From the NCBI GenBank assembly GCA_024642335.1, contig JAHEBH010000001.1:62001-126000 (forward strand): a DNA stretch of 64,000 bases, in the 5' to 3' direction. Of the stretch, positions 36,650 through 40,600 are shown in pieces. The notes below the pieces were generated by a model. It was given only the letters and a program-made list of their open reading frames with translations. It was not told the DNA's origin and did not search any database. The DNA is from Erythrobacter sp. (GTDB taxonomy: Bacteria > Pseudomonadota > Alphaproteobacteria > Sphingomonadales > Sphingomonadaceae). The first letter of the stretch is position 1; the number at the start of each line of letters is the position of its first letter. A program made the position numbers and the translations under genes.

Positions 36650-37092
36650 GGCGTCAGCGTCTCATCTGGTTTGCATTGGGAGCATTGACGTCAGGCGCAT
36701 TTAGCGTGGCTGCTACGCTTCTGGTCAGCGAGGAATCGCCTTCTGACCAGACGGTCTCAACGCTTGTACTACGGGAACCTGGTGGTTGGAGTTGGGAAAA
36801 CGACGAAACGCACACTTCAATCGCTTATGCGGAGGAAACAGCGCCACAAGGCGCACCGGTAGCTGGAGAAATCGCAAGCGAATGTGGTGTTCAATTCTTC
36901 TGGATCGAGAACCCGGCTGCTGAAGACGCTGACTATACGAACGTCGAGATTCCGTTGGTAGGACAGAATTTCGGGGCGTTGGAGTGCATATTCGCAAGAA
37001 CTGAGGAGTCGGAAGTAGAATCTTGGTTTTCGACCCGTTCAGTCCCGCAAAACAGCGAAGAGATTTCATTCTTCTACGGGGAGGATCGATGA
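36646..37092 (+). CDS. hypothetical protein with N-terminal signal/TM segment
   Basis: GTG start overlapping the carA stop (GTGA); VRRQRLIWFALGALTSGAFSVAATLLVSEESPSDQ...; stop overlaps the relic carB ATG (ATGA). Confidence 0.6.
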   Translation: MRRQRLIWFALGALTSGAFSVAATLLVSEESPSDQTVSTLVLREPGGWSWENDETHTSIAYAEETAPQGAPVAGEIASECGVQFFWIENPAAEDADYTNVEIPLVGQNFGALECIFARTEESEVESWFSTRSVPQNSEEISFFYGEDR

Positions 37093-37124
37093 GGCCCAAA
37101 CGTACTGACATCTCCTCGGTCCTC
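37089..37124 (+). pseudogene. relic/duplicate of carB 5' end
   Basis: atg agg ccc aaa cgt act gac atc tcc tcg gtc ctc = MRPKRTDISSVL, matching the carB start [12 protein letters not shown] at 37661; preceded by SD ggggagg. Confidence 0.75.
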
Positions 37125-37130
37125 GCGAAC

Positions 37131-37163
37131 ACCCTTCCCCTTGGGGAAGGGTTGGGGATGGGG
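37131..37163 (+). repeat. REP-like palindromic unit A
   Basis: acccttcccc-tt-ggggaagggt perfect 10-bp stem followed by tggggatgggg. Confidence 0.8.
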
Positions 37164-37203
37164 GTTCGGCGGTGATGGCCGGGTGCTTCATGGCGGGTGT
37201 TGT

Positions 37204-37240
37204 ACACCCATCCCCCGGCCCCTTCCCTTCAGGGAAGGGG
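37204..37240 (-). repeat. REP-like palindromic unit B
   Basis: acccatcccccgg then ccccttccct-tc-agggaagggg perfect 10-bp stem; opposite orientation to A. Confidence 0.8.
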
Positions 37241-37243
37241 GGG

Positions 37244-37627
37244 TTATTGGTTGCGGGCGAGGGTGATTTCTTCGGCGATGCGCGTCAGAACGCCATCCGT
37301 GTTTGCCAGCACATCGTAGTTCCAGAAGCGGATGACACGGTAGCCGTGGGCTTCGATGATTTCGGTTCGAACAGCGTCGGCGGAATTGTCCGCATGCTGC
37401 CCGCCGTCCAGTTCGATAGCGAGGCGCAAGCTGCGGCAAGCAAAGTCCGCAATAAAGTCGCCGATCGGGTGTTGCCGGGTGAACTTTGCGCCGCACAACT
37501 GACTCGCGCGCAGGTGCGACCACAGCCGCTTTTCCGCGTCAGTCGGATTGCCCCGCAACTCGCGCGCGAGGCTGGTCAATCGCTTTCCTGCCAATGCCGT
37601 AAACCCATCCCCAACCCCTTCCCTCAA
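37244..37627 (-). CDS. DUF559 (Vsr-like) endonuclease-domain protein
   Basis: ARELRGNPTDAEKRLWSHLRASQLCGAKFTRQHPIGDFIADFACRSLRLAIELDGGQHAD...GYRVIRFWNYDVLANTDGVL; no ATG, start may be TTG 37627, 37594 or 37579. Confidence 0.85.
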   Translation of the reverse strand: MREGVGDGFTALAGKRLTSLARELRGNPTDAEKRLWSHLRASQLCGAKFTRQHPIGDFIADFACRSLRLAIELDGGQHADNSADAVRTEIIEAHGYRVIRFWNYDVLANTDGVLTRIAEEITLARNQ

Positions 37628-37634
37628 GGGAAGG
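37601..37634 (-). repeat. REP-like palindromic unit C
   Basis: acccatccccaa then ccccttccct-ca-agggaagggg perfect 10-bp stem; inverted relative to A. Confidence 0.8.
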
Positions 37635-37660
37635 GGCTTTCAGTAGCGAAGTTGAGCTAG

Positions 37661-40600
37661 ATGCCCAAGCGTACAGACATTCAATCCATTCTCGTAATCG
37701 GCGCCGGTCCGATCATCATCGGCCAGGCGTGCGAGTTCGACTATTCGGGCACGCAGGCGATCAAGGCGCTGAAGGAGGATGGCTACCGCGTCATCCTGGT
37801 GAACAGCAATCCGGCCACGATCATGACCGATCCGGAATTCGCCGACGCGACCTATGTCGAGCCGATCACGCCCGATATTGTCGCCAAGATCATCGAGAAG
37901 GAACGCCCCGATGCGCTGCTGCCCACCATGGGCGGGCAGACCGCGCTCAACTGCGCGCTCAAGCTGGAGGAGATGGGCGTCCTCGAGAAGTTCGGCGTGG
38001 AGATGATCGGCGCCAAGGCCGATGCCATCGACAAGGCCGAAAACCGCCAGCGCTTCCGCGCGGCAATGGACAAGATCGGGCTGGAAAGCGCGCGCAGCGG
38101 CGTGGCGCATACGGTGGATGAAGCTTTTGCCGTGCTCGAACGAACCGGGCTGCCTGCCATCATCCGTCCCAGCTTCACGCTTGGCGGCACCGGCGGCGGC
38201 GTCGCCTATAACAAGTCCGAATTCGAAGCCATCGTCCGCACCGGCCTCGACGCCAGCCCCACCACCGAGGTGCTGATCGAGGAAAGCCTGCTGGGCTGGA
38301 AGGAGTACGAGATGGAGGTCGTGCGCGACAAGCACGACAATGCCATCATCATCTGCTCGATCGAGAATGTCGATCCGATGGGCGTGCATACGGGCGATTC
38401 CATCACCGTCGCCCCCGCACTGACGCTGACCGACAAGGAATACCAGATCATGCGCACCGCCAGCATCAATGTGCTGCGCGAAATCGGCGTGGAAACAGGC
38501 GGTTCGAACGTACAGTTCGCAGTCAATCCCAGGGATGGCCGCCTGATCGTGATCGAGATGAACCCGCGCGTGTCGCGGTCCTCGGCGCTCGCCTCAAAGG
38601 CCACCGGCTTCCCCATCGCCAAGGTCGCCGCCAAGCTGGCCGTGGGCTACACGCTGGACGAGATCACCAATGAGATTACCGGCGCAACCCCGGCTTCGTT
38701 CGAGCCGACCATCGATTACGTGGTCACCAAGATCCCGCGCTTCGCGTTCGAGAAGTTCAAGGGCGCCAAGGTCGAGCTGTCCACCGCGATGAAATCGGTG
38801 GGCGAGGTCATGGCCATCGGGCGGAACATCAAGGAATCGATGCAGAAGGCGCTGCGCGGCCTCGAAACAGGCCTCGACGGCTTCAACCGCGTGGTCGAGC
38901 TGGAAGGCAAGGGCAGGGACGAGATCACCGCGGCGCTCTCACGCGCAACGCCCGATCGCCTGCTGATGATTGCGCAGGCCTTCCGCGAAGGCTTCACCAT
39001 GGAAGAAATCCAGGCGATCACCCATTTCGACCCGTGGTTCCTGCGCCAGATCGAAGAGATCATCGCCGAGGAAAAGCGCATCTCTGACGAAGGCCTGCCG
39101 GGCGATGCCGCGGGCATGCGCCGCCTCAAGGCGATGGGTTTCTCCGACAAGCGCCTCGCCACGCTGGCCGTGCGCTCGGTGCATGTCGCAGGCGGGCTGG
39201 GCGAAACGCAAGCCAAGCGTTCGGGCCTGCTGCACGATGCGCTGCGCGCGATGGCCGGCGCCACATCCGAACAGGAAGTGCGCGAATTGCGCCACAGGCT
39301 GGGCGTCTTCCCCGTATACAAGCGTATCGACAGCTGCGCCGCCGAGTTCGAGGCGATCACGCCATACATGTATTCGACCTATGAGGCGCCGACCTTCGGC
39401 ACGCCAGAGGATGAGGCTGACCCGTCAGACCGCAAGAAGGTGGTCATCCTCGGTGGTGGTCCCAACCGCATCGGGCAGGGTATCGAATTCGATTATTGCT
39501 GCGTCCACGCCTGTTTCGCGCTGGCCGAGGCGGGTTTCGAGACCATCATGATTAACTGCAACCCGGAGACGGTTTCGACCGACTATGACACTTCCGATCG
39601 CCTCTACTTCGAGCCGCTGACCGAGGAGGACGTGCTGGAAATCCTGCGCGTCGAAATGTCGAAGGGCGAATTGCTGGGCGTGATCGTGCAGTTTGGTGGC
39701 CAGACGCCGCTCAAACTGGCCAATGCGCTGGAAGAGAACGGCATTCCCATCCTCGGCACCTCGCCCGATGCGATCGACCTTGCCGAAGATCGTGAACGTT
39801 TCGCCAAACTGGTCAACCAGCTGGAACTTAAGCAGCCCGCCAACGGCATCGCCCGCAGCCGTGACGAGGCCGCCGCCGTGGCTGCGCGCATCGGCTATCC
39901 TGTTTTGCTGCGTCCATCCTATGTCCTGGGTGGCCGCGCCATGGAGATCGTCGACAGCGAGGCGCAGCTCGATAACTATATCGCCACCGCGGTGAACGTA
40001 TCCGGCGACAGTCCCGTGCTGGTTGACCAGTATTTGCGCGATGCCATCGAATGCGATGTCGACGTGCTGTGCGATGGCGAGGAAGTGCGCGTCGCGGGCG
40101 TGATGCAGCATATCGAGGAAGCCGGGGTCCATTCGGGCGACAGCGCCTGTACCCTGCCGCCCTACAGCCTGCCCGCCGAGATCATTGCCGAGATGGAACG
40201 CCAGGGCGAGGCACTGGCCAAGGCTCTGGGCGTGCTGGGACTGATGAACGTGCAATTCGCGGTAAAAGATGGCGAGGTCTACCTGATCGAGGTGAACCCG
40301 CGCGCCAGCCGCACCGTGCCATTCGTGGCCAAGGCCATTGGCCAGCCGGTCGCCAAGATCGCCAGCAGGATCATGGCTGGCGAGAAACTGGCCGATTTCC
40401 CGCCCTTCAAGCGAGAATTCGATTACATGGCGGTGAAGGAAGCCGTCTTCCCCTTCGCCCGCTTCCCCGGTTCGGATCCCGTCCTCTCACCGGAAATGAA
40501 GTCCACCGGCGAAGTCATGGGTATCGACCGGGAATTTCCCTATGCCTACATCAAGTCGCAGATCGGCAGCGGCACCAATTTGCCCGAAGGCGGCACGCTG

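Follow-up and report, generated by a model that had tools for sequence, protein, structure and literature searches.

What does a short nuclease gene do between inverted palindromes, and do gene and palindromes together form a mobile unit? The locus that raises this question lies between carA and carB in an Erythrobacter genome, within a window of 64,000 nucleotides (the whole stretch of DNA that was analysed), and consists of a DUF559 gene and three units built from a pyrimidine tail, a linker and a palindrome (Table 1). A motif scan of the window finds exactly three such units, all inside 506 bp (37131-37636), and they are not a product of chance because the scan finds none elsewhere in the 64 kb. 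The geometry described in the original prediction is largely borne out: the proposed terminal inverted repeats of about 30 bp correspond to 28 nt of units A and C that are 82% complementary, with 425 nt between the arms, the stem is 10 bp long in all three units, a third unit is present inside the module, and the DUF559 stop codon is 3 nt away from it. The claim that gene and repeats are physically fused holds for the longest frame, whose start codon lies inside unit C, and fails if a TTG at codon 12 is used, which gives a protein of 116 aa that still includes the full domain. Read directly, the palindrome of unit A is ACCCTTCCCC-TT-GGGGAAGGGT (37131-37152), followed by the tail TGGGGATGGGGG, and on the minus strand it is read as CCCCCATCCCC-AA-CCCTTCCCC...; unit C reads CCCATCCCC-AA-CCCCTTCCCT-CA-AGGGAAGGGG. 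The tails of the inverted units A and C point inward, and unit B, oriented as C, adjoins the stop codon, so that A and B form an inverted doublet resembling two gene-less doublets of the same genome (L313, L314). Between the units no ORF other than DUF559 fits, and no HUH tyrosine transposase gene (IS200/IS605-like) is found there. A search for an Rfam identity of the module returned sub-threshold matches only (sX13, a miRNA).

Table 1. Coordinates of the module and of the adjoining carB remnant in the window.
Feature	Positions	Strand	Description
Stranded native carB start remnant	37090-37125	plus	MRPKRTDISSVL; left of the element, outside it
Unit A	37131-37165	minus	10-bp-stem palindrome and pyrimidine tail, gene-facing; TTA/AA-type linker
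Unit B	37207-37241	plus	CCCATCCCCC-GG-CCCCTTCCCTTCAGGGAAGGGG; CGG-type linker
DUF559 (PF04480) Vsr-fold nuclease gene	37244-37627	minus	127 aa from TTG 37627; Pfam E = 8e-38
Unit C	37604-37636	plus	CCCATCCCC-AA-CCCCTTCCCTCAAGGGAAGGGG; opposite in orientation to unit A; the longest DUF559 frame starts inside it

The repeats had been taken for an unnamed REP-type family; instead, they fit the known grammar of the BoxC/PIT/TM intrastrand-triplex motifs. REPs are defined with a GTAG tag at the foot of the stem (PMC3733652), and no GTAG tag is present in units A-C when the sequence is read directly. Known since the 1990s and recorded in more than 260 genomes, the BoxC/PIT/TM motifs have been tied to genomic instability, and triplex formation has been shown in vitro for an E. 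coli sequence (Holder et al., 2015; PMC4666352). The units described here share with them the tail-linker-palindrome grammar, the C/T-rich composition, the intergenic position, the inverted doublets of two linker types and the wide distribution. They differ in that the known motifs were previously without a linked gene or enzyme, with explicit mention that no mobility gene was found near them, including in E. coli (PMC4666352), whereas the present units flank DUF559 genes. The third strand is perfect in units A, B and C (tail-side score 1.0; allowed triads only), and all three are predicted purine-motif intrastrand triplexes that can be drawn from stem and tail. More generally, the tail covaries with the stem as a third strand, with 23% perfect matches against 5.5% when tails are swapped between units, on a scale whose ceiling is about 50% because both sides of each palindrome were scored.

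Repeat and gene are associated at the scale of whole genomes, as anticipated in the original prediction. The exact TM pattern occurs in 46 of 249 genomes of the phylum (no matches for the reversed control), and a strong DUF559 match accompanies it in 33 of these 46, against 30 of the 203 other genomes (odds ratio 14.6; Fisher p = 8e-14, which is optimistic because the genomes are related). Genomes with both motif and DUF559 are found in 24 of the 31 motif-positive genera, though 13 of the 46 repeat-positive genomes have no strong DUF559 match. Four genomes (G286, G203, G344, G306) carry 24-126 TM motifs and no strong DUF559 match; the gene may have been lost in them, the genome may be incomplete, or another enzyme may be used.

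The protein itself appears intact and under constraint. It matches PF04480 with 129 bits (curated cut-off 20.6) over profile positions 2-108 of 109, and the Vsr-like D...E.DG..H core is intact, present as IADF...IELDGGQH. Residues including R51, D61, D74, G75 and H78 are invariant across 58 sequences, and the core is kept in 200 of 214 near-full DUF559 domains with internal stops in none, in a survey of open frames that under-counts broken copies. Values of dN/dS between 0.13 and 0.28 among genus relatives indicate purifying selection on the protein. The N-terminal EGVGDG that the original prediction mentions for related bacteria is indeed found in relatives, as LREGVGDG (L250, L252-L254). An AlphaFold model of the window protein (pLDDT 87, pTM 0.81) is matched best by 3HRL, a DUF559 protein, and then by the catalytic domain of the homing endonuclease I-Bth0305I (PDB 3R3P; E 1e-4, probability 1.00; TM-score 0.60 by query and 0.76 by target), followed by 5hmC-specific enzymes such as AbaSI and PvuRts1I and, weakly, by Vsr. 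The predicted fold is thus like that of the Vsr-type homing endonuclease I-Bth0305I, the nearest enzyme of known function. I-Bth0305I is phage-encoded; the DUF559 genes described here are, by difference, chromosomal, single-domain and placed between palindromes. An anti-phage defence gene is not indicated, as the matches to PADLOC models were weak and partial (E about 5e-4), confined to the nuclease domains of larger proteins, and a phage origin of DUF559 was also set aside, with distant matches in three phage records.

The arrangement extends far beyond this locus. DUF559 matches were collected from the family, from the phylum and from a set of about 85,000 species represented by one genome each; at 183 loci, the two flanks of the domain (200 bp before it, and 200 bp after it as reverse complement) were aligned with each other. 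An arm score of at least 14 is reached by 72% of the 183 loci; among controls from the same DNA the figure is 0.64% for random positions (n = 3597) and 0.8% for short ORFs (n = 498). A score of at least 25 is seen at 47% of the loci and at no control, so that the expected enrichment of DUF559 genes next to repeats is clear. The elements are compact (median 462 bp). Arms made of a C/T-rich palindrome and a pyrimidine tail are found in Sphingomonadaceae, Rhizobiales, Xanthomonadales, Nitrospirae, Legionellaceae, Prevotella and Deinococcus, and matching arms thereby span Alpha- and Gammaproteobacteria, Nitrospirae, Bacteroidota (Prevotella) and Deinococcus. The tail is mostly the part turned towards the gene; Prevotella, Deinococcus and a few others show the reverse, with the palindrome on the gene side. 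Clear paired arms are absent from 28% of the 183 loci, including E. coli ycjD, which has units on one side only, and they were not found at Klebsiella and Pseudomonas plasmid copies of DUF559 (L292-L294). At the 3HRL locus of Neisseria gonorrhoeae (L282), near-identical TM-like units, CTCTCCCTGTGGGA.AGAG.TAGAGAGAGGGCAACAAGC, stand on both sides of the gene as direct repeats. The ycjD gene has its TM unit on the 3' side and is a degenerate case beside a BoxC-type unit; in 3367 of 5426 genomes, a single place matches at least 80% of the ycjD query. In an eef-operon strain the ycjD-side TM unit is absent from this locus; at sapF-fabI, ycjD and the eef operon stand in for one another as blocks and do not make a simple empty and filled pair, and a clean strain-level insertion in E. 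coli was rejected on that ground.

Many units occur without the gene. The window's genome holds 28 palindromes of a second subtype (no matches for the reversed control pattern), mostly as gene-less doublets 67-105 bp apart and also around two further DUF559 genes. One such doublet (L305) shares its ends with a DUF559 element (L309), with 38 of 38 nt identical on one side and, along the 37 nt compared at the opposite end, a few differences. The exact tail and arm CCCATCCCCAACCCCTTCCC has three copies in the 2.66-Mb genome, namely unit C and two gene-less doublets. Each of five simple doublets (L302, L305, L306, L313, L314) combines one TTA/TTG-type with one CCG-type linker; outside the window's genome, the regular expression yields too few units for this pairing (as in A and B) to be compared. 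The same pairing rule has been reported for five E. coli pairs (PMC4666352). A second doublet class in the window's genome (L303, L304, L307, L308, L311, L312) carries an additional hairpin, GCGAGACTTGG...CCTAGTCGCAGCGGGGTGGG, in the stretch that separates its palindromes. In Sinorhizobium, each arm of two elements (L295, L296) is itself an inverted doublet of about 112 bp, and related copies are found on most Sinorhizobium megaplasmids and scattered over many replicons of Sinorhizobium and Rhizobium. Intergenic double palindromes of roughly 110 bp in rhizobia are known as RIME elements, which have no known gene, and the Sinorhizobium arm doublets presumably belong to this family.

It could be supposed that the gene is a passive passenger, with other machinery (RAYT, IS or replication slippage) spreading the units and DUF559 inserting into them or being trapped between them. 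The many gene-less doublets and the motif-positive genomes without a strong DUF559 match would agree with this, and ISs are known to target REPs (ISPpu9). The relation between gene and repeat makes it unlikely. Of 62 loci in 12 genomes that each carry several DUF559 genes, 48 have a left arm whose best match is the right arm of the same locus, with paralogs only 35-70% identical. Within a genome, each gene usually comes with a repeat type of its own that is alike on its two sides; trapping into a shared pool of repeats would not give that. The repeat type also covaries with the protein, as had been asked of the DUF559 phylogeny: across 150 elements, repeat likeness rises with protein identity (Mantel 0.140; permutation maximum 0.131), and alike repeats are seen in 3-4% of pairs at 40-50% protein identity, 27% at 60-65% and 68% at 70-80%, the upper bins partly reflecting vertical inheritance of orthologs. 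In the reverse direction, all eight motif pairs 300-900 bp apart, among the matches listed, enclose DUF559 and no other gene; seven are inverted, and one has both motifs on the same strand, around a broken DUF559 gene. The earlier E. coli work, with no mobility gene near the motifs, also argues against another carrier (PMC4666352).

Empty sites, looked for as a mark of mobility, exist in the window's own neighbourhood and at two other loci. In the genus, a related element occupies the carA-carB interval of five genomes (L250, L252-L254, L259) and is absent from two (L249, L251), where the flanks align directly. The site of an element with 101-bp arms from another genus (L091) was located in all 61 genomes, 34 of them with a single junction-spanning match and others with gene-less doublets or unrelated inserts. 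Two Deinococcus species carry the element antisense at different positions of the same hpa operon, and each is empty at the position occupied in the other. In Sinorhizobium, where a strain-level empty site was sought, four records hold most of the locus and the gene is present in all four. This patchy presence at the same site among relatives, together with several divergent copies per genome and no fixed neighbour, makes it very improbable that DUF559 is a resident Vsr-like mismatch-repair or housekeeping endonuclease and that the palindromes are terminators or regulatory hairpins, the more so as the tail-plus-palindrome grammar goes beyond a terminator and is matched on both sides. Such a role is nevertheless suggested by the weak structural match to Vsr and by VsrA of Caulobacter crescentus (CCNA_02930), a DUF559 nuclease active in vivo that drives a DNA-damage response in cells without cytosine methylase; it was studied for mismatch repair and the SOS response, and the text consulted reports no repeat link (PMC12907096).

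The left flank of the module holds a trace of its arrival. A genus-type copy of the carB start (about 36 nt) lies upstream of unit A and matches the carB start of a sister genome (L232) at 94% identity across 35 nt, and the active carB start is unlike that of relatives. The remnant marks the insertion event, and it fits an acquisition anchored by carB homology with the other side closed without homology. It is not evidence for nuclease action, because a similar remnant occurs at L248, where the insert has no DUF559. A long co-conversion tract in carB was rejected, as only the first ~100 bp are unusual and the remainder is without a donor switch (mosaic test). The carA-carB interval (36650-37661 in the window; L232-L260, L114, L048, L297) is a recurrent insertion neighbourhood in the family, with a different small insert in nearly every genome, and so is the gatB/yqeY-dnaG interval adjoining carA. 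Upstream of several carA-carB inserts a short remnant of an older carB start has stayed behind, as though the insert had been acquired through homologous recombination on one side, within carB. At L218 and L227 a truncated second glyS start precedes the real one by about 120 bp, in the downstream flank of the DUF559 element, in the same pattern as at carB. These stranded starts (carB in the window, L114 and L048; glyS at L218 and L227) and the I-Bth0305I-like fold could point to a stand-alone nuclease homing into conserved neighbour genes, with the units giving only homology or insulation. That reading is improbable, given the remnant beside the insert that lacks DUF559, the many unrelated genes that elements adjoin and the gene-less doublets with the same ends.

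The module is best explained as a compact (about 460 bp) single-gene mobile element whose nuclease would act on its cognate unit and spread that unit by break-and-copy, to which we assign a probability of roughly 0.7. The DUF559 nuclease would most likely recognise the cognate unit as a DNA hairpin or triplex, or else an element-free target, and introduce a nick or break; host recombination may then copy the element, or a gene-less doublet of its two ends, into the broken site. One nuclease gene could in this way maintain itself and a population of non-autonomous doublets, staying at low copy while the doublets multiply, much like RAYT transposases and their REPINs. The comparisons show the architecture and how general it is, the association and specificity of gene and repeat, the gene-less derivatives, the empty sites and the selection on the protein, whereas unit recognition, cleavage and copying are inferred from these patterns; a homing-fold nuclease acting on a structured repeat, combined with recombination, is the simplest reading of them. 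Cut-and-paste transposition is unlikely because there is no transposase domain, no target duplication and no near-identical autonomous copy. A DDE insertion sequence or MITE was rejected in the same terms: no transposase is present, and target-site duplication is not above chance in 126 elements; comparison of elements also reveals no exact ends. Within single genomes, no near-identical autonomous copies were seen that would point to a recent jump of the gene itself.

The closest parallel is with the RAYT/REP/REPIN systems (REPtrons), which likewise have one nuclease gene between palindromes, many gene-less cognate inverted doublets, diverse repeats matched to the gene and no target duplication seen. 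RAYTs, in contrast, are HUH tyrosine transposases with GTAG-tagged REPs, while the enzyme here is a Vsr-fold nuclease of the PD-(D/E)XK type, and its triplex-type units lack the GTAG tag. No earlier report of a DUF559-repeat link was found in the open-access literature searched, although a subscription paper or preprint may exist. Altogether, the data suggest that a DUF559 enzyme spreads BoxC-type repeats of hitherto unexplained origin. A wider view, held tentatively and at somewhat less than even odds, is that a pan-bacterial class of mobile elements exists in which a Vsr-fold nuclease of about 115 aa would recognise a triplex or hairpin and propagate itself and its doublets by break-and-copy, with BoxC, PIT/TM, the rhizobial mosaic elements and related C/T-rich palindromes forming one DUF559-driven superfamily. 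The link between BoxC/PIT/TM motifs and an intact nuclease family, represented in E. coli K-12 by ycjD, makes the origin of these repeats directly testable in an ordinary laboratory strain. If true, it would add a non-HUH enzyme to the world of REP-type repeats and would suggest a role for many DUF559 genes that are annotated only as 'endonuclease domain-containing protein'.
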